The translations under genes were made by a program, and so were the position numbers. This document shows, in pieces, positions 2,568-63,627 of a stretch of 64,000 nucleotides of DNA. The notes under the pieces were generated by a model. The model did not search any database and had not been told where the DNA came from. It saw only the letters and a list, made by a program, of their open reading frames with translations. Within the stretch, counting starts at the first letter, position 1. The number at the start of each line of letters is the position of its first letter. Source of the DNA: Antedon mediterranea (lineage: Eukaryota > Echinodermata > Crinoidea > Comatulida > Antedonidae); assembly GCF_964355755.1 (NCBI RefSeq), contig NC_092680.1, forward strand, positions 20,189,001 through 20,253,000, in the 5' to 3' direction.

Positions 2568-2719
2568 TCAATTCAAATTTTTTGATAGTAATTGTTTTAT
2601 CTCCTTTGTGGAAGTATTTATCTTCATATTAACAAAAACTAACTGTACTAATAGGCATATTAGTACTGTTATGAATACGCCAATATTCCATCCATTGTTA
2701 CATTCACATGCACTATACA
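2568..2719 (-). CDS. Transmembrane segment and cytoplasmic tail of the Ig gene
   Basis: The minus-strand translation reads SACECNNGW, then about 20 hydrophobic residues (IGVFITVLICLLVQLVFV), then a Lys-rich tail and TAA at 2568. A hydrophobic helix followed by positive residues is the signature of a type I membrane anchor. It joins in frame to the linker piece at 5498 once the transposon and the ATACA duplication are ignored. Confidence 0.65.
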
Positions 2720-5497
2720 CAGGCCCGTAGCCAGAATGCATCAGAGGGGGGTTTTCTTGACACCAAGTATTTTGCGAGCGCAGCGAGCAACTGTAGGCTG
2801 GGGGCCAGGGGGCCGCCAAGGGCCCCCCCGGTGGGGGTCCAGGGGGCGAAGTCCCCTGGAAGCTTTGGCTCTCAGAGCAATTTCGGTTGTTTTAATAAGC
2901 TTACAGAGACATTTTTTACCTACTAAAATCTGAGTTATGCAGAGAAATTATATAGTACAGTATTATGGAAGTTAGTAGTACTGATCATGAAATACAGCTT
3001 TATTGTTGCAAAAAAGTATATTATATTAGGCCCTTAAATAATTTCTTATCCTATAAACATAAAAAACAAAGAATACCGTATATTTCGGTGTACAAGTCGC
3101 ACCTGTGTATAAGACGCACCCATAACGGAGACTGAAATATTAGTATTTATGTAGTCGATGCATAAGACGCACTTATTTCTAGGCCGAAATTTAAACATTT
3201 TACAATCAAAACAATGGTATTTTAATAATAAAACAACGATATTTGAGACATATTTATTAGAATCAAATGATATAATTTTGTTTGATTGCCTTTATTACAT
3301 CGTAATCAGTCTCTACTTCAACTACTACTACTACTTAAACTGAACATTCAATGAAAAGGGAAATCCCCATATTGTTTCAGTTACGATGCACTGTGTGGGT
3401 AGGGCTAGCCTATGTCATTTAAGTAACTTTAATTTCATATTATTTAAATATATACCTTCTTATTGTGTGTATGACCATTATAAGATCAATCCAAATGATG
3501 TTCAGTTTTTTGGGCTGATAATGAACCAGGAATTTCCATGCATGCATTACAGCAATATGAGGAGAAAAGAACACTAACCATTAGTCTGGGCTCCAGACGG
3601 AGTTTTTTCTTAATATTAGTAAAAATATAAATATTTTTGCACATATGGCGTTTCATACGTGTATTACTTGAGTTTGGATACTCCGTCTGGGGAAACACGC
3701 AAATGTCACGTGGTTTGACACCAAGAATTCTTGGTGCATAGATTATCCGGTTGACTAGTTTCAGCTGCATGCGATTGGCTACTCACTCATACACTGTTTT
3801 AATATTCATATTTCAGAATTTCAAGCGCATGCGCTATGTTACGTTTAGACAATATGTACTTTGGGTACATTGATGAAAGTTTCTGAAGGCTAGAAAGGAT
3901 TTTATATGGATCATTTAATCAGGGAGATGTAATTTACATCTCCCTGATTTAATATTACGCGGAGATAATTTGATTTAATTCCCACCCAGACCTGTCCTGT
4001 TCTGTGTAGTGGTGTAGCCCTGTTGTGTGTGAATCCTGTTGTGTGCCGGTGGTGGTATTATGTAGGCCTACCTTATTGGCGTTTTATTTGGCAGGTCATA
4101 CGTGCGCGTTGAGTAGGACCTACGAAGGAGGCATAGGCTAAGGACTAAACAATTAATAAACAAAACAACTTGGCAACACGATTTCATATTTTAACAGTCT
4201 CGATCGTACATTCAGCACTGTACGTTGGCCTACTCGATCTTTTTCATTTTGAAACAAAATGATCATTGGTTGATTCGAAATCCATATTTACATACCGCCC
4301 GCCCCATATAGCCAAATACGGTATGATAACCTACGTCATTCTTATCGGATGTTTGCGGTCTGCAAATCGATTTCTATACGTGTTTCACAAGTCTGTATTT
4401 TCGCGGTCGAAATAAAAACAAATAAATTTTTAAAAAAACAATACAGACTTGGGGCAAGTCTAACTAACCATGTGCTCCTTGCCTGGTGGCCAGCACTGTT
4501 GGCCATATACACTATGAGATTAGGGGAAGCTACTTAACACAATAACAACACACTCTTTTAGATATCGCTTGACATACGAACTATTGCCTACATGATTATA
4601 AAATTATGTGATTGTTGACATAGAGATGTAATAAAAATAAACCACCGTGATCAAGGGAAATAGTTATTGTGTAATTAAAATGTGACACCACCGTAATTAA
4701 TGGACTCTTCCATAAATGTGTTGCGCTGTGATGCTGCATGCTGCTAGTACACACCCGCGAGTTCAGAGGGTATTACTAGGCCTGGGTAGAATATCTAATG
4801 CGTACTGTAATATTAATTAATACAGTCGAGGATGACAATTTACCTTAACTAAAAATTCAATAAACTTGTTACCACACTGTGGTTAGACAGGAGTGAGTAA
4901 CTAGCGAGGCCTACATTGCAGAGTAGTACACTATTTTTAATTAATTTAAATATTAGTAGGTAATTAAATTAATTAGGGTAACATTTAGAGGTCAAATTTG
5001 CGTGTCAAAAGTGCGTCTTATACACCGAAATATACGGTAGGCCTACGTACACGTACCAATTTAACTCAACACCATTTTTATTCAAGTTTACACAGTGAAA
5101 TTCTTTGGTTTAATGAAAAATATTTCCAGGAAAAAAATTAAAATCCCCAAAAAGATTGAACTGAACTGAACGTGATCTTATGCGTTCCGAAAAACCCGGC
5201 CGAAGCACGCGATTGGTCAGTCCATTTTTCTGTCATATTTATAACCATCATCTCTCAACAATCTCTCGATCTCACGCTCAGCAGTGACTTTGACATCGGA
5301 CAATCTGTATATTCGATCGATTTAAACATAGTCAATAGAAGTAAAATGACCAAAAAATCTGCTATAATTGATAATTAATTGCACGATTTTGGAAGTGGGG
5401 CCTTTTTTTTTCAAGGGGGGTTCGCTGGTAAAAGGGGGGTTCGCGCAAAAGGGGGGGTTCGCCCGAACCCCAAAAAACCCCCCTGGCTACGGGCCTG
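2720..5497. mobile_element. DNA transposon copy 1 (TIR CAGGCCCGTAGCCAG, 5-bp TSD ATACA)
   Basis: The ends are CAGGCCCGTAGCCAG and its inverse CTGGCTACGGGCCTG. The element is flanked by ATACA at 2715-2719 and 5498-5502. It is 2778 bp long with no open frame above about 70 codons, so non-autonomous. Internal sub-terminal motifs of the type 'ACCGTATATTTCGGTGTA' occur near both ends in opposite orientation. A 5-bp duplication does not match hAT (8 bp) or TA-targeting families; I do not assign a superfamily. Confidence 0.8.
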
Positions 5498-5661
5498 ATA
5501 CATAATAACATCATCCTCCAATTTTTCTGTCGTTGTTTCAGTCGTTTTCTCTGTAGCAGTGACATCATCTTCTACTTGTAGAATTATTTTATTTGTAGTT
5601 GTTTTTTTTAATATATCAGCCAGGCCACAAGTCAGTGGCCTCTCTCTTTCTTCATACACTT
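5498..5661 (-). CDS. Linker segment of the Ig gene between two transposons
   Basis: A short minus-strand stretch is open in the same frame as the Ig exon and the transmembrane piece. It encodes an acidic, Thr/Glu-rich spacer (for example TATEKTTETTTEK) like a juxtamembrane stalk. It is bounded on both sides by identical transposon ends and carries one copy of each 5-bp duplication (5498-5502 and 5657-5661). Confidence 0.65.
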
Positions 5662-7513
5662 CAGGCCCGTAGCCAGGGGGGTTTTTTGGGGTTCGGGCGA
5701 ACCCCCCCTTTTGCGCGAACCCCCCTTTTACCAGCGAACCCCCCTTGAAAAACAAAGGCCCCACTTCCAAAATCGTGCAATTAATTATCAATTATAGCAG
5801 ATTTTTTGGTCATTTTACTTCTATTGACTATGTTTAAATCGATCGAATATACAGATTGTCCGATGTCAAAGTCACTGCTGAGCGTGAGATCGAGAGATTG
5901 TTGAGAGATGATGGTTATAAATATGACAGAAAAATGGACTGACCAATCGCGTGCTTCGGCCGGGCTTCGGAACGCACAAGATCACGTTCAGTTCAGTTCA
6001 ATCTTTTTGGGGATTTTTATTTTTTTCCTGGAAATATTTTTCATTAAACCAAAGAATTTCACTGTTTAGGCCTAATCTTGAATAAAAATGGTGCTGAGTT
6101 AAATTGGTACGTGTACGTAGGCCTACCGTATATTTCGGTGTATAAGACGCACTTTTGACACGCAAATTTGACCTCTAAATGTAACCCTAATTAATTTAAT
6201 TACCTACTAATACTTAAATTAATTAAAAATAGTGTAGGCCTACTACTCTGCAATGTAGGCCTAGCTAGTTACTCACTCCTGTCTAACCACAGTGTGGTAA
6301 CAAGTTTATTGAATTTTTAGTTAAGGTAAATTGTCATCCTCGACTGTATTAATTAATATTACAGTACGCATTAGATATTCTACCCAGGCCTAGCAATACC
6401 CTCTGAACTCGCGGGTGTGTACTAGCAGCATGCAGCATCACAGCGCAACACATTTATGGAAGAGTCCATTAATTACGGTGGTGTCACATTTTAATTACAC
6501 AATAACTATTTCCCTTGATCACGGTGGTTTATTTTTATTACATCTCTATGTCAACAATCACATAATTTTATAATCATGTAGTCAATAGTTCGTATGTCAA
6601 GCGATATCTAAAAGAGTGTGTTGTTATTGTGTTAAGTAGCTTCCCCTAATCTTATAGTGTAATGGCCAACAGTGCTGGCCACCAGGCAAGGAGCACATGG
6701 TTAGTGCTCTCTCCTCATATTATTGCTGTAATGCATGCATGGAAATAGGAAAGATTTTCATATAGGCCTACCCAACATGATATTCCTGGTTCATTATCAG
6801 CCCAAAAAACTGAACATCATTTGGATTGATTTTATAATGGTCATACACACAATAAGAAGGTATATATTTAAATAATATGAAATTAAAGTTACTTAAATAG
6901 ACTTAGGCTAGCCCTACCCACACAGTGCATCGTAACTGAAACAATATGGGGATTTCCCTTTTCATTGAACGTTCAGTTGAAGTAGAGACTGATTACGATG
7001 TAATAAAGGCAATCAAACAAAATTATATCATTTGATTCTAATATGTCTCAAATATCGTTATTTTATTATTAAAATACCATTGTTTTGATTGTAAAATGTT
7101 TAAATTTCGGCCTAGAAATAAGTGCGTCTTATGCATCGACTACATAAAAAATACTAATATTTCAGTCTCCGTTATGGGTGCGTCTTATACACAGGTGCGA
7201 CTTGTACACCGAAATATACGGTACTATTTGTTTTTTATGTTTATAGGATAAGAAATTACTTAAGGGCCTAATATAATATACTTTTTTGCAACAATAAAGC
7301 TGTATTTCATGATCAGTACTACTAACTTCCATACTGTAGGCCTACTATATAATTTCTCTGCATAACCCAGATTTTAGTAGGTAAAAAATGTCTCTGTAAG
7401 CTTATTAAAACAACCAAAATTGCTCTGGCCCCCAGCCTACAGTTGCTCGCTGCGCTCGCAAAATACTTGGTGTCAAGAAAACCCCCCTCTGATGCATTCT
7501 GGCTACGGGCCTG
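5662..7513. mobile_element. DNA transposon copy 2, inverted and internally deleted (TSD CACTT)
   Basis: This is the reverse complement of copy 1, with the same terminal CAGGCCCGTAGCCAG and flanked by CACTT at 5657-5661 and 7514-7518. It is 1852 bp long. It lacks the part of copy 1 between about 3580 and 4465; the breakpoint lies at the 9-mer ACTAACCAT, present twice in copy 1. It is otherwise highly similar to copy 1, so both insertions look recent. Confidence 0.8.
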
Positions 7514-7821
7514 CACTTCTATTGACATTAGCCGACAATGCTCACCGTTGGTTTCAATTACTGTTAGCCATGCTTCTTTAGATACTTCTGCTTCTCCATT
7601 CTTCCAAACTTTACATTGATAATAGCCTTGATCTGTACATTTTACTTCATCTATTTCCAAAATAGTTTTGCGTTGATCATACATCACATTGAAATGTTCA
7701 TCTGGTGTAATAGTTGTACCATTTTTCAGCCACTCACACTTTTCAGGTACCTCATTCAAAGGGCATGTAAACTTGGTGTCCGCATTCCCTTCATAAACCG
7801 GTTTTTCATGACTTTCTGGTC
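7514..7821 (-). CDS. Immunoglobulin (I-set-like) domain exon
   Basis: The translation shows the hallmarks of an Ig domain: a B-strand cysteine in FTCP, the core tryptophan in CEWLKNG about a dozen residues later, and the F-strand motif DQGYYQC, followed by a G strand ending AWLTVIE. An extra cysteine pair (KC-EW and VKC) may form a second disulfide. An acceptor is possible just above 7821. A GTATGT donor at 7904-7899 would leave an 83-nt intron with compatible phase. The exon runs straight into a transposon end at 7513. Confidence 0.75.
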
Positions 7822-7904
7822 CTCGATCAAGAAGTTGTCCACCAACATTCACAAATAAATGTACAAAATTAAACAAATTGTAGGACAGTCAAATATAAAC
7901 ATAC

Positions 7905-9020: not shown

Positions 9021-9982
9021 ATAATAATAATAATAATAATAGTAATAAATGAAAACTTATATAGCGCCGGTATCCTCCACCCATGTGGCGCTCATGGCGC
9101 TTTGTGCATTAACAACGTGCGAGAACATCAGCGAATAGCGACGTCTTTAGGTTGGTCTTGAAACTGTTTAGACTAGTTGAGCATTTAACTGTTGCTGGTA
9201 AGCTGTTCCATACACTTGCGGCCGCAACGTAAAAAGATCTCTGACCCCACTGATTTTTCGCTCTACGCTCTTGAAGAAGGTTTTGTGACAATGATCGTAG
9301 GCCTCTGCGGGATGATTCGTAACGATCCACAAGGTCAGATAAATAAGCAGGAGCACTGTCATTTAGGATCTTGAATACAAACAACGCAAGTTTGTACTTA
9401 ATACGTTGTTGAACAGGCAACCAATGCAAATCCATCAGGACAGGAGTTATGTGAGCGTTTGATTTTGTATAAGTTACAATTCTAGCTGCCATATTTTGCA
9501 AGCGCTGCAAACGTTGTATTTGAGATTTTGGTATGCCAAACAACAAGGCATTACCAATGTCAATTTTAGAAGTGACAAATGAGTGTACAATCAATTCAGC
9601 TGTTTTCTTGTTAAGATTACCGCGAATACGACCAAGGTTCCTAATCGATATGCATGCTGCTTTGGATACAGTTGTTATTTGTGCTTCCATAGTGAGATTA
9701 CTATCCAGCATGATTCCCAGATTCCGGACCACCGATGAGGGAGCGATGTTAGAGTTTCCGATTCTGATATGTGTGATGTTGATTTTGGAGATGTTACATT
9801 TAGACCCGATGATAATAAACTCTGTCTTTCCATCATTCAACTTTAGGTAATTTGTTGTCATCCAATTGCGAACATCTTCTATACAGGCTTCCATCTTACT
9901 GATTGCTGCAGCAACATCCCTTTGCACTGGATTTACTGACACATAAATCTGTGTATCATCTGCATAGAAATGGAAATGGCAT
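9021..9982 (-). mobile_element. 5'-truncated LINE, 3' end with (TTA)n tail
   Basis: Minus-strand non-LTR retrotransposon fragment. It starts right at the reverse transcriptase catalytic motif (FYADDTQIYVS) and runs through the conserved thumb region (GNALLFGIPKSQIQRLQ, LHWLPVQQRIKYKL, WNSLPATVK) to the stop at 9109. It then has a short 3' UTR and a TTA microsatellite tail at 9021-9040. The layout is that of the CR1/L2/Rex-type clades. The endonuclease and the RT fingers are missing, so it is dead on arrival. Confidence 0.85.
9109..9982 (-). pseudogene. LINE reverse transcriptase C-terminal fragment
   Basis: An open frame of about 290 codons holds the YADD box at its extreme N-terminus, then the RT palm/thumb and the C-terminal region ending in FKTNLKTSLFADV. 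There is no start codon belonging to it, because the element is truncated just upstream of the catalytic motif. No stop or frameshift inside, consistent with a young insertion. Confidence 0.8.
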
Positions 9983-10032
9983 ATTCAACACAAAATAATG
10001 AAAAAATGTTTAAGGGGACAATATATCTTTAA

Positions 10033-11719: not shown

Positions 11720-14700
11720 CTGATTAAAGAAATATGAAAAATTTAAATAACTTGAAAGATATACTAGCTTTATAAATTAGCAAGACGAGGAAGAAAAGGG
11801 ATAGCTATGCTTGATAGATTAAAAAATAACAATACATATTTGGAACTAAAAGAAGAAGCACTAAATAAAGAAGCACGAAGAAAGAAGACTGTCATGGACC
11901 TGCCAATTGGCAGATGACAAGAGAGAGAGTCTAAATTCACGCCCGATACTATGGTAGGGTTCGTAGATACAGGAGTGAGTTGTGGCTTGGTGGTTATGAT
12001 GCTTGGCTACCACTCCAAGTGTCCTGGGTTCAAGTCCCGTCACATGTCAGGATTTTTTCTAAGGACCAAATTACTTCAATCCCAAAGACTTGTAATAAGA
12101 CTTTGTTTATGTAGAGCACCTTGTGTATATGTTTGTCTTGTGAACCTCTGAGGGTCCCTAATGATCAGCAATAGCTGGATGGATCACCCTCATTAAATAT
12201 GGTTTAAAAAAAAAAAAAAAAAAAATTACTACAGGATTAAGTTGCAAGAGAATAAACACAGTATACTTTACCATTTGTGATGAGATGTGTTTTGCTATAC
12301 ATTTATTGGTTGTCTATTTAGCACTTATCAATTACTTATATAGCTGTTATCTCTGAGGGTCCCTAATGATCAGCAATAGCTGGATGGATGGATGGATCAC
12401 CCTCATTAAATATGGTTTAAAAAAAATAATCTTACCCTTTGCTTTCCTTTTTCTTCTGTTTGCAAACCAGTTGTACACATTCATAGGAGTTATTACTCTA
12501 TTCTCTGTACATAAATCTTCTGTGGGAATCAATAACATTTAATTGATAATATAATAATAATAATAGTTTATTCATATAAGCAAGCTCTCAATGTGCTATA
12601 CATTTTTGTTTGGATCAAACACGTATGGAAACATGCACCCATAATAGTGCATCTAGTATTCAGCACAAAGTTGAGTCTTGATTTAACCGGGTATCCATTT
12701 TATCCACTTGGGTAGAGAGAGGCAAATGTAAGTGTCTAAGGATACAAGCAATACAGAGTTGGATTCCAACCATGATCTCACGATCAGTAATCCAACGTCC
12801 AACACATCCTCAATGTACATTATGTATCAATTTGCTGACTTAAATTTACAGCTTTCAGATTAATTAGGCCTAATCAAAGAGGCAAACATTTATTTCATCC
12901 TGCAACAAGGAAATTACATTGCTTGCGCTGAACAAATTAAAAATAATACTAAAAAAAATGTTACAAAGTCAAAAAGTACAAGATATAAAAGATAAAAAGA
13001 CACTAACCATCAATCGCCTTTTAAAATTATAATTAAATTGTCTTATACCCCCAAAGAAGGTGGTTGTGCAAGAGACTGGTGGTCTTAAACGTCTGATACA
13101 AATTATGCACCTGTCTTTACAGTGCATTGGTTGGTTTCATCATCCAAAAATGCAATTGAAAAGTCAATTCAACAAACATGGTTGGTAATTGAGATTGTGA
13201 AAATAAGCAGCAGCAAAATAAAGTATATTTTCACATCACTTACTTACCTACACTATTACTTAAAGAGTTGAGTGTGTCCGCCATGGTGCGCACTTCGTTC
13301 ATGCTTGGGTAAGCATTCTCTTTGCGATAGGTTTCTAGAACTTGAAGTTCCTTTTCAGTCCAGTGGAGTCGGTCACGACGACCAAACACAGGTCTTGCTG
13401 TCTGACCTACAGTATCAATATGACAAAATGTTATTGTTAATATAACATGGAATTCTCCCTAATATAGAAGGTCAAACATTTTATTATTTGATCTAAAGGA
13501 AAAATTGGTGAAATAGTGGAATTATACTCTCTGATATTACTTTTGCTCCGATACAGCATTGGTCTGAAAGCGAACAGTAATTAGTGGATGCTAAACATAG
13601 GATTTTACTGTATTCTGTAATATACGGTAACCTTTATATATTTAATACATAGATGTATTAAACAACTAGAGTAATGGGTAGTAACGCAGTGCTGAACAAA
13701 ATCATATGTATTATCACCGTGCACTAGTACAACCAAAATAGGTATAGTAGAGCACAGTGCTAAACTAAATTCTATTTATTATCACTGTGCGCAAGTACAA
13801 TCAAAATTGGTAGAGTAGCGCACAGTGCTAAACTAAATCCTATTTATTATCACTGTGCGCATGTACAACCAAAATGGGCTAATTTTATATAGTTAATACA
13901 TAGATGTATTATACAACTAGAGAGCTAATCTTTGTTAATATTATTACTACTTACCTTCAACTCTGCTCTGTTGAGATTGAACATTTCCTCGGTTGGATAG
14001 GTGGTACCATGTATAGAGAAGCTTAACAGCAACCTTTGTGAGTCCCCTTCCTGTTAGCAGGTAATGCGACAGTATCCCCTTCTGTATGCCAAGCTCCTTA
14101 GACAGCCAGCTTTGTGATATATCATGGCTTAATATAAACATCTTGATATCTTCCCATAGCTTGTTTGGATCGTGGCTGGTGGAGTGAAAGAAAAGAAAAT
14201 TAAATAACTAACCCAAATCCTTCAGATGGGACGTACACCTGTTGGTTCTGTGTACATATAGTGCACGTTAAAGAACTTGGTACACTATTCGCAAAGAGTA
14301 TGGGATTGTCTCCTGGTGTGCTGATCTGGGTGGTAGTCGCTGCACTGCTGGCTGCCGTGGGTCCGTGGAGCGCCTAATCTGAATTTCCTCAGTTTCCAGT
14401 TAAGCTTGAGGACAAATATTAATACCTTTACCTTTATATTTTGATTGGCTATTGTTTGTTAATAATGGATATTAACTTTGTATTCACACCTAATCAAGGG
14501 CATATGTAGAAATGTGTTTAAGGAGGGTACAAAGTGCATCCAGTATTTATTATGTTTTTAGTTAGTATTTTGCAAGTGAACAGAATCCTCCCTTGAAAAC
14601 TTTGTTTAGCACTACTATACTTTCGCATCCCAATCTCATAAGATTAACCCAATTTAAAAACAAATCACCACCTGCGCAGTGGTGATAGTGATTGACTATA

Positions 14701-15920
14701 AAGTCTTATGCCCAGCGAATTCAAATTTGGTGTGAAAGTACAGTACCGACAATTTTTGTTTTAATCACAGATTACTGTGTGTCAGAACGTTGGATACCAT
14801 AGCTATACAAGTAGTCAACTCTCCCAATACCGGACACCTTTTGGCTGGTCTAATATGTCTGGTTTTCTGTAAAGTCTGGTATTGGGAATGTGTATTTGTT
14901 GTGAGGTAATTTCCCGATTGATCGTAATCAAAACGGTACTGGGTATGGTCTACTAGTTTTTCTGCTCCCAACCAGTACATCCATTCATAGAAGCTTTGAT
15001 GAAGTAAGCCTACCTGGTGGTGGCCATAGAACGGTCCCGAGATAACGACTATACTTCGGCTTTAGTCGATAGAAGATTGAATGAATTGTTAGAGATAGAG
15101 TATACGATGTTATGATTATGTGTAGATATGTGATTTGTTCTTTTTATTCCAATGATGTTATGTATTTAATAAATTTGTTATATCAATTAATTAAATTATC
15201 GTAGATTGCATATTATGCGATGAATATTATTTAATACATTTTTGATATATTATTATTATTATTATTACATTAATAAAAAAGATATTTGTTAGTATAAATT
15301 AAAAATATAGATATAAGGAAGAAAAGCAAAGGAAGAAATTGTGTATTTAATGGTAAAAATGAATTTGGGACCTTTTGAACCTCAAGAAAAGTCTGGTTTG
15401 GGGAGAGTTTCCAGTTTTGTCCAGTCTTGGGAGAGTCCACTGTAGTTACAACTTGCAATAAAACACACCTTATTAGTCTATTAAATTCAGCTTCAGCTTC
15501 TACATCCATTGGCGTTTCTTGACTTGGCACACTGTTACTTACTACAAACATATTAGACGGCACTTGGCTTAAGTCAGAACTTCTTGACCCAGCATGCATA
15601 TTTAGCACAGAACTTTGGTGTTGGACTACGGAACTTGGTATTTGCACTGGACTTTGAGATGCAGAACTATGCAAGGAACTCTGGTGAGGGTAAGCAGAAC
15701 TTGAAACAGATTGATTATCGTTGGTTCCTTGATAAACTCTTGGCGATGGCACTGTGTGGACATCCTTAATCTGGATGCGTTTCTCTGGTGATGGTCCAAG
15801 ATCGTTGTCCAGTTTCTCCATTGCAGTTATAGCTGCCACCATCTCTTCTTTCGTCATGCCAGTAGCACGTAGCCGCCGCAGAAGCTCATACTGCTCTATG
15901 GTGTAGCGTGGTTGTGACAT
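11439..15920 (-). CDS. HMBOX1: HMBOX1-like homeobox protein, complete coding region, five coding exons
   Basis: Coding exons (minus strand, in order): 15469-15920, 13955-14175, 13248-13406, 12436-12519, 11439-11719; total 1197 nt, 398 residues plus stop. All junctions have GT/AG and consistent phase. The N-terminus (residues about 5-40, RYTIEQYELLRRLRATGMTK) matches the conserved N-terminal helical region of HMBOX1; residues about 150-220 form the POU-specific-like domain; residues about 234-305 form the atypical homeodomain ending WFANRRKRKAK. In vertebrates HMBOX1 (HOT1) binds telomeric TTAGGG repeats and acts as a transcriptional regulator. The length is close to the vertebrate protein (about 420). 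The tail is acidic then Ser/Thr-rich. HNF1 is the nearest alternative, but the N-terminal motif favours HMBOX1. Confidence 0.9.
11975..12229 (+). mobile_element. tRNA-derived SINE with 7-bp target duplication
   Basis: The head carries an A box (TGGCTTGGTGG, 11982-11993) and a B box (GGTTCAAGTCC, 12027-12037) at tRNA-like spacing. An unrelated body and a 20-base poly(A) at 12206-12225 follow. The unit is flanked by TACAGGA at 11968-11974 and 12230-12236. It lies in HMBOX1 intron 4, antisense to the gene. Confidence 0.8.
12351..12428 (+). mobile_element. SINE 3'-tail fragment
   Basis: This repeats the last 75 bases of the SINE at 11975-12229 (CTCTGAGGGTCCCTAATGA onward), with an expanded GGAT microsatellite and a short A-run. 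It is a 5'-truncated copy ending a few bases from the HMBOX1 exon 4 donor. Confidence 0.7.
12436..12519 (-). CDS. HMBOX1: HMBOX1 coding exon 4 (homeodomain recognition helix)
   Basis: Acceptor TTCCCACAG and donor GTAAG bound an 84-nt exon for residues 278-305. It carries the recognition helix VYNWFANRRKRK with W48, F49, N51 and R53 of the homeodomain code all present; position 50 is Ala, as in HNF1/HMBOX1 proteins. A truncated SINE tail ends only a few bases into the downstream intron. Confidence 0.9.
13248..13406 (-). CDS. HMBOX1: HMBOX1 coding exon 3 (homeodomain, helices 1-2)
   Basis: Acceptor TACTGTAG, donor GTAAGTAA. It encodes residues 225-277, including GRRDRLHWTEKELQVLETY and MADTLNSLSNSV, which are homeodomain helices 1 and 2. 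159 nt, phase 1 at both ends. Confidence 0.9.
13635..13921. repeat. Three ~67-bp tandem units with hairpins, bracketed by a direct repeat
   Basis: Three diverged units (starting about 13678, 13743, 13811) lie between two copies of a 37-bp sequence containing AATACATAGATGTATTA (13635-13671 and 13885-13921). The last unit holds a perfect 10-bp inverted pair GCGCACAGTG / CACTGTGCGC. It lies within HMBOX1 intron 2. Confidence 0.65.
13955..14175 (-). CDS. HMBOX1: HMBOX1 coding exon 2 (POU-like domain)
   Basis: Acceptor CCACCAG precedes 14175; donor GTAAGTAG follows 13955. It encodes residues 151-224, starting SHDPNKLWEDIKMFILSHDI and including SKELGIQKGILSHYLL and LLYTWYHLSN. These correspond to the helix-turn-helix of the POU-specific-like domain of HMBOX1. 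Confidence 0.9.
14221..14413. repeat. Dispersed repeat family C, copy 1 (SINE-like)
   Basis: About 190 bp shared with 22086-22264, beginning at a GTGTACATATAGTGCA block and ending CAGTTTCCAGTTAAGCTTGAGGAC. The two copies differ by point changes and small gaps. No terminal repeats or tail identified, so the class is uncertain. Confidence 0.6.
15469..15920 (-). CDS. HMBOX1: HMBOX1 coding exon 1 (start, N-terminal domain)
   Basis: ATG at 15920-15918 is the first methionine of the conserved block MSQPRYTIEQYELL, which aligns to the vertebrate N-terminal helical region. A Ser/Gln-rich linker follows. The exon ends phase 2 (AG) before a GTGTGT donor at 15468. The 5' UTR probably starts at an acceptor near 15953. 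Confidence 0.9.
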
Positions 15921-15930
15921 CCTTGTTGCA

Positions 15931-16214
15931 TTCGCTTGAAGTGGGGTGAAACCCTTGGATAAGAGAAAAATGGAATACCTATAAGTAAGTTTTTTATTTT
16001 TAGTTTAGGTGGTTACTGGTTTACTGGCATTTTCAATTATTTTGATGCTTGAAAGTATTATTGAGAATATTGAATTCGCTTGAAGTAGAGTGAAACCCTT
16101 GGATAAGAAAAAAAATGGAATACCTATAATGAAACTTTTGATTTTTACTTTAGGCAGTTACTGGTTTACTGGCATTTTCAATTATTTTGATGCTTGAAAG
16201 TATTATTGAGAATA
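15931..16214. repeat. Tandem duplication (~140 bp x2) at the HMBOX1 5' UTR acceptor
   Basis: Copies at 15931-16069 and 16075-16214 are about 90% alike. Copy 1 includes the likely 3' splice site before the start codon, so copy 2 offers a second, similar acceptor upstream. Confidence 0.75.

Positions 16215-25061: not shown

Positions 25062-63627
<38,566 letters not shown>

Follow-up and report, generated by a model that had tools for sequence, protein, structure and literature searches.

Clustered protocadherins are encoded by tandem single-exon ectodomains in which one part is diversified and another part is homogenized by gene conversion. In echinoderms, kirrelL is described as an intronless adhesion gene of the immunoglobulin (Ig) superfamily, present as one gene and acting in skeleton formation (PMC8903837), and a recent review gives Toll-like, NOD-like, and scavenger-type receptors as the expanded receptor families of the group (PMC13428168). 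The Alr family in the allorecognition complex of Hydractinia consists of clustered Ig receptors, with 41 genes reported (PMC11067881, PMC11999971). In a literature search judged by titles and abstract beginnings, with subscription journals mostly outside its coverage, none of the papers listed described an intronless tandem Ig receptor family in crinoids, hemichordates, or similar animals. Here we analyze a stretch of 64,000 nucleotides from the crinoid Antedon mediterranea (C11:20189001-20253000 of the genome labeled G000; GC content about 0.33), referred to as the window, in which a minus-strand exon for an Ig-domain protein is interrupted by two transposons, element A and element B. This locus is most probably one gene, now decaying, of a small tandem cluster on the minus strand of C11:20.17-20.20 Mb, whose members are single-exon genes for membrane-anchored receptors of the Ig superfamily, and two transposons hit it independently. 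A pseudogene within a birth-and-death receptor cluster is the most likely state of the interrupted copy, which is not demonstrably a polymorphic null allele.

Positions without a contig name refer to the window. The Ig piece of the exon (7519-7888, minus strand) is an open frame that matches Pfam I-set (E 4.5e-12), has its Ig domain at approximately 7559-7786, and contains no ATG in frame before that domain. On the same strand follow a middle piece (5503-5661), comprising the start of a second domain, most of which is missing without a shift of the frame, and then a Thr-rich stalk, and a third piece (2568-2719) encoding the membrane helix and a short tail, with the stop codon at 2565-2567. Element B (5662-7513, minus strand), a 1852-bp non-autonomous DNA transposon with 15-bp inverted ends, separates the first two pieces, and element A (2720-5497, plus strand), which measures 2778 bp including a nested insert and belongs to the same family but to another subfamily and lies in opposite orientation, separates the last two. 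The inverted ends read CAGGCCCGTAGCCAG at 2720-2734 and 5662-5676, and its reverse complement occupies 5483-5497 and 7499-7513. Each element is flanked by its own perfect 5-bp duplication (neither assigned to a strand), ATACA at 2715-2719 and 5498-5502 for A and CACTT at 5657-5661 and 7514-7518 for B. The nested 881-bp element inside A (3582-4462, no strand assigned) is bounded by the 9-bp duplication ACTAACCAT at 3573-3581 and 4463-4471, a length that we take to be as in Mutator-like elements.

A first-pass annotation of this DNA had claimed that Ig, linker, and transmembrane pieces on the minus strand share one frame, that the two intervening elements carry perfect duplications of CACTT and ATACA, and that removal of each element with one duplication copy leaves about 204 codons without a stop. 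All of this was borne out by the coordinates: with each element and one duplication copy left out, the joined frame from 7888 to 2568 comprises 226 codons and no stop, or about 204 codons when counted from 7821. Three features did not figure in that annotation, namely the element nested in A, a frameshifted signal peptide, and the missing second domain. As a control for chance, three random window pieces of similar lengths were joined and none of 20,000 such joins was open, compared with 22 of 20,000 two-piece joins and 18 of 20,000 unbroken reads of 226 codons.

Homology is a stronger control than random joins for the view that the pieces belonged to one exon. The genome measures 354.4 Mb, at least 353.0 Mb of it in eleven contigs, with C10 counted at no less than 24.6 Mb. 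When it was searched with the Ig piece, three DNA paralogues were listed besides the piece itself, at 72-74% identity and 11-15 kb away, and further family members were listed by a protein search with the intact neighbor g1. The cluster members lie on the minus strand: g1 at C11:20186641-20187690, g2, g3, and g4 all within L005 (C11:20179001-20189000), and L008 (C11:20174700), an intact frame of 291 amino acids with a layout similar to that of g1. An uninterrupted paralogue of the joined exon, which the first-pass annotation had proposed to seek, was found in g1, a single uninterrupted frame with signal peptide, Ig domain, second Ig-like domain, Thr-rich stalk, membrane helix, and tail. The window copy aligned with g2 at 46% over 113 columns in blastp. 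At the A site, the joined peptide scored above all 300 shuffles against g1, g2, and g4, and was not above chance against L008, L012, L013, and g3, where 162, 220, 110, and 131 of the 300 shuffles, respectively, reached its score. At the B site, the 29-residue peptide is weak alone, its score being reached by 24 (g2), 23 (g4), 35 (g1), and 50 (g3) of 300 shuffles and by 134-189 of 300 against L008, L012, and L013. Longer blastp alignments with g2 and g4 pass through this site, and at the DNA level it scored above all 200 shuffles against the same two genes and not above chance against g1 (43 of 200 shuffles reaching the score) or g3 (76 of 200). With the elements left out, the Ig piece runs on into stalk and membrane helix, as judged against g1, g2, and g4 at the A site and against g2 and g4 at the B site (in DNA, weak as protein). 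Because paralogues are uninterrupted at both sites, the pieces were once one exon, and we conclude that both elements landed inside it; a reading in which the pieces are separate exons was rejected, since paralogues read through both sites.

Apart from the transposons, the window copy differs from its relatives in damage of its own. A signal-peptide remnant (7849-7902, minus strand) starts at the ATG at 7902-7900, is one base short of g2, g3, and g4, and so is out of frame with the Ig domain, ending after 17 codons at the TGA at 7851-7849. The copy has an N-terminal Ig domain related to those of g1-g4 but no signal peptide in frame, and of the second Ig-like domain the first strand alone is recognizable. 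Its neighbors are broken as well: g2 carries frameshifts at both its signal peptide and its membrane region, the stalk region of g3 contains three stops, and g4 has a TGA at the position of the core Trp of its relatives, so that four of the six cluster members seen, the window copy included, or three of the five neighbors, are broken. The ratio of nonsynonymous to synonymous change (dN/dS) in the window Ig domain was 1.07 against g2 (84 codons), 0.83 against g3 (84 codons), and 1.51 against g4 (61 codons), compared with 0.41 against L008; against g1, synonymous sites were saturated. Values near 1 fit relaxed constraint, although diversifying selection could give them too. As it stands, the window copy should not make a secreted or membrane-anchored receptor.

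The two insertions look independent and young. Fifteen copies were fetched from the best matches of two genome searches, in which 40 of 1161 and 40 of 3177 first-look candidates were scored, so that closer relatives may exist; all divergences count substitutions only, and those to the nearest sampled copies are upper bounds. Element A, with its nested insert removed, differs from its nearest sampled copy, L020 on C5, at 7 of 1871 sites (0.37%), and B differs from its nearest sampled copy, L024 on C7, by 0.27%, in agreement with the earlier claim that both insertions are recent. The two elements differ from each other at 29 of 1793 sites (1.62%), their shared ends and body being identical at 97.3% over 1047 bp, 93.6% over 671 bp, and 100% over 89 bp. 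If the rate is taken as 1e-9 to 5e-9 per site and year, A and B would be at most approximately 0.3-2 million years old, and the nested 881-bp element is one base different from another copy at C11:4903595. Both ends were exact in 10 of the 15 fetched copies, and a 5-bp duplication was present in 7 of these 10; among the others the duplication was 7 bp at L026 and 6 bp at L032 (by eye), and L022 had none. Terminal inverted repeats and target-site duplications are thus found at other copies, as for cut-and-paste DNA transposons. Among the open reading frames (ORFs) of at least 110 amino acids in the longer copies L057-L060, which were not scanned against Pfam, there was no assignable transposase frame. 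We regard the insertions of A and B as independent, since their duplications are separate and, of the 15 copies sampled, a different one is nearest to each. It is highly improbable that they represent one event, or that one is a local copy of the other, forming a composite insertion with a captured piece of host DNA. Their proximity would favor this: among 29 exact right ends in the genome, the A/B pair lies 194 bp apart and the next closest pair 662 kb apart, whereas the expected number of pairs within 200 bp is 0.0005 when there are 29 copies. However, the family is larger than 29 (the same 1161 and 3177 candidates), 0.56 such pairs would be expected with 1000 copies, a second close pair exists at C8:6265870 and C8:6266358 (one member being a fragment), and a shared site preference is possible. 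Moreover, each element has its own duplication, the nearest sampled relatives of both lie elsewhere, and the middle piece continues paralogous coding sequence. A composite or locally copied pair was disfavored, given the different nearest relatives of A and B among the sampled copies.

An alternative is that A and B created a recent null allele of a functional receptor with one Ig domain, with an empty-site, in-frame gene on other haplotypes and hence a presence/absence polymorphism. The insertions are young enough for polymorphism (0.27% and 0.37% to the nearest sampled copies), and neither the Ig piece nor the membrane piece has lost its open frame. This alternative is nevertheless unlikely, given the out-of-frame signal peptide, the lack of an in-frame ATG ahead of the Ig domain, and the damage to g2-g4, which do not carry these elements. 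There is scarcely more than a slight chance that the elements are removed as introns or provide a new end, the locus still making a protein such as a truncated Ig product ending in element B. In favor of such a product, the Ig frame reads on into B as far as residue 188, where a stop follows (ORF 7322-7888); against it, if an element were cut out by itself, 5 additional bp would remain and the frame would shift (splice sites being judged by eye), and the Ig frame lacks an ATG or signal peptide. A decaying tandem subcluster explains the locus better because the copy is damaged apart from the transposons and its neighbors are broken too. The interpretation given in the first-pass annotation stands in part: one exon, two separate young insertions, and the uninterrupted paralogue g1 are upheld, and the idea that the transposons alone make a null allele is weakened by the lack of a usable start or signal peptide, the mostly missing domain 2, and the broken state of g2, g3, and g4. 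Several observations weigh against a decaying copy. The A and B sites are spanned by some paralogues only, the missing signal-peptide base could be an assembly error, and a dN/dS near 1 over 61-84 codons could also reflect diversifying selection, the value against L008 being 0.41. In addition, no stop interrupts the 226 codons and the core residues of the Ig domain survive, which means either that decay set in recently or that the Ig piece is perhaps still in use. The relatives encode, after a signal peptide, a diverse Ig domain at the N terminus and a second one that is Ig-like, followed by a Thr-rich stalk, a single membrane helix, and a short tail. In the sequence of events that we favor, the window copy would have lost most of domain 2 and acquired the signal-peptide frameshift; and two non-autonomous DNA transposons of one family and different subfamilies, one carrying a further nested element, would have landed independently. 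The order of frameshift and insertions is what we infer; observed directly are the anatomy of the locus, its paralogy, the separate duplications and low divergence of the elements, and the frameshift relative to the paralogues. For a tandem gene family evolving by birth and death, the loss of one receptor copy to mutation and transposons is ordinary.

The window copy is an entry to this family, which is of greater interest than the copy itself. Pfam Ig models scored above cut-offs in the window piece, g1, L008, L012, L013, and L038, and just under the cut-offs in L039; in both L012 and L013, the second domain matched C2-set_2, a CD80-like model. In a 10-member alignment (g1 numbering), W77, C119, C160, and C216 were present in 10 of 10 members and C61 in at least 9. 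The earlier naming of a surface Ig receptor gains support from these Pfam matches and from the signal peptide-Ig-membrane layout of the relatives, whose N-terminal domain most likely binds a ligand or another cell, a receptor function predicted from domain layout. A protein search with g1 gave at least 70 matches, 63 of them without stops (116 of 236 candidates scored), some weak ones of which may be other Ig genes, and a search with a member of an array on C3, array Y, gave at least 94, of which 90 were without stops (91 of 381 candidates scored). Both counts are lower bounds, the lists overlap, and a few genes account for two matches each. The listed matches of the array-Y search were on C3 except for two on C10, many of them in tandem and with open frames of approximately 450-510 codons. 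L036 and L037 (C3:11880001-11900000, 20 kb, array X) contain 10 whole genes with three Ig domains and two more truncated by the stretch end, and L038 (C3:18700001-18710000, 10 kb) holds the five complete genes of array Y; "single exon" here refers to the coding region and does not cover untranslated exons. With complete single-exon genes every 1.7 kb or so, repertoire size, allelic diversity, and gene conversion become directly measurable from long reads.

For array Y, the five complete genes in L038 were compared; in the array-Y search, ten genes, the query among them, reached 79% or higher, and tandem genes of this kind occupy C3:18.70-18.91 Mb. In windows of 40 codons, nucleotide identity was 0.50-0.72 over the signal peptide and first Ig domain (Ig1), 0.88 at the boundary between Ig1 and the second Ig domain (Ig2), and 0.89-0.98 from Ig2 to the stop, and the visible alignment ends at the stop codon. 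Mean identity in the flanks, computed without a shuffle control, was 0.51 over the 200 bases before the first Met and 0.48 over the 150 after the stop, and the four spacers (261-468 bp) have one 35-bp match in common and no more. In every one of the 10 pairs, synonymous difference (pS) was higher in Ig1 (0.54-0.73) than between the start of Ig2 and the stop (0.10-0.15), so that synonymous change is much lower in one coding part, as in partly homogenized arrays. The ten genes of array X showed the same direction in 43 of 45 pairs, more weakly; at the amino-acid level Ig1 (0.64) and Ig2 (0.66) were equally diverse, and membrane helix and tail reached 0.92. The conserved tail of array X contains the motif VYFEPRD, which is common to array Y. 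Mean dN/dS of Ig1 was 0.23 in array X (37 of 45 pairs usable) and 0.26 in array Y (8 of 10), and therefore no positive selection is shown. The simplest explanation would be that gene conversion keeps the selected 3' coding part alike, the unselected spacers and the diversifying first domain having lost the homology it needs. Only tentatively can it be suggested that the window copy is a broken remnant from a large repertoire, probably of more than 100 single-exon tandem Ig receptor genes in an ambulacrarian genome, in which the outermost Ig domain is diverse and Ig2, the third Ig domain, the membrane helix, and the tail are homogenized by conversion up to the stop codon, forming an Ig-based counterpart of the clustered protocadherins for immune or allogeneic recognition.

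Other features were seen in the window and the genome. Two minus-strand exons with Pfam HNF-1_N (13947-14207 and 15270-16004) probably belong to one homeobox gene, which we take to be HMBOX1-like. A GC-rich plus-strand segment at 31597-35411 (0.50-0.58 in bins) has long overlapping frames, one with a weak Phage_int_SAM match just over the cut-off, and is presumably a DIRS-like element. A LINE-type reverse transcriptase fragment lies at 9109-9984 on the minus strand (Pfam RVT_1 below cut-off), and a very Glu/Asp-rich open frame of 523 codons at 57771-59342 on the plus strand has no Pfam match at E 0.001. On C2 (7827797-8206132), 12 Hox-type homeodomains, one in reverse orientation, occupy approximately 380 kb; we assign them to Hox1-8, 9/10, and three of the 11/13 types. 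The feather star Anneissia japonica has a GC content of 33.2% and 12 Hox genes, with a cluster of ten and an inverted last pair more than 360 kb apart, the GC content being similar to that of hemichordates (PMC7351957), and hemichordates have 12 Hox genes in approximately 500 kb with the last two inverted (PMC3707753). The C2 layout, with the last two genes close to the rest and one alone inverted, is an exact fit to neither. An ambulacrarian genome, of a crinoid or a hemichordate, is most likely on this evidence, and the GC content of the window does not distinguish between these two. Of the other markers searched, COX1 had no match, innexin had two matches slightly above its cut-off, and GH6 had none, as was also the case for its control.

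Compared with known systems, the locus is closest to the arrays of its own genome (g1, L008, and the arrays on C3 and C6), which likewise lie in tandem and have a single coding exon for everything from signal peptide through Ig domain or domains, stalk, and membrane helix to the tail, the window copy differing in its lack of an in-frame signal peptide, its small remainder of domain 2, and its two insertions. Novel immune-type receptors and other vertebrate tandem Ig receptors share a variable outer domain, a short tail, and the tandem arrangement, but have known signaling motifs, none being established in the present family. In clustered protocadherins, a diversified and a homogenized part are likewise found in tandem single-exon ectodomains; however, the domains are cadherins and splicing joins variable exons to common ones, whereas every gene of the present family has a tail and stop of its own. 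As described, kirrelL resembles the family in being an intronless Ig-domain membrane gene of echinoderms and differs in being one gene for skeleton formation. The Alr proteins are similarly clustered, single-pass Ig membrane proteins with diverse extracellular domains; they are cnidarian, and allorecognition function and polymorphism have been shown for them, whereas the present family is known from the sequence of one assembly.

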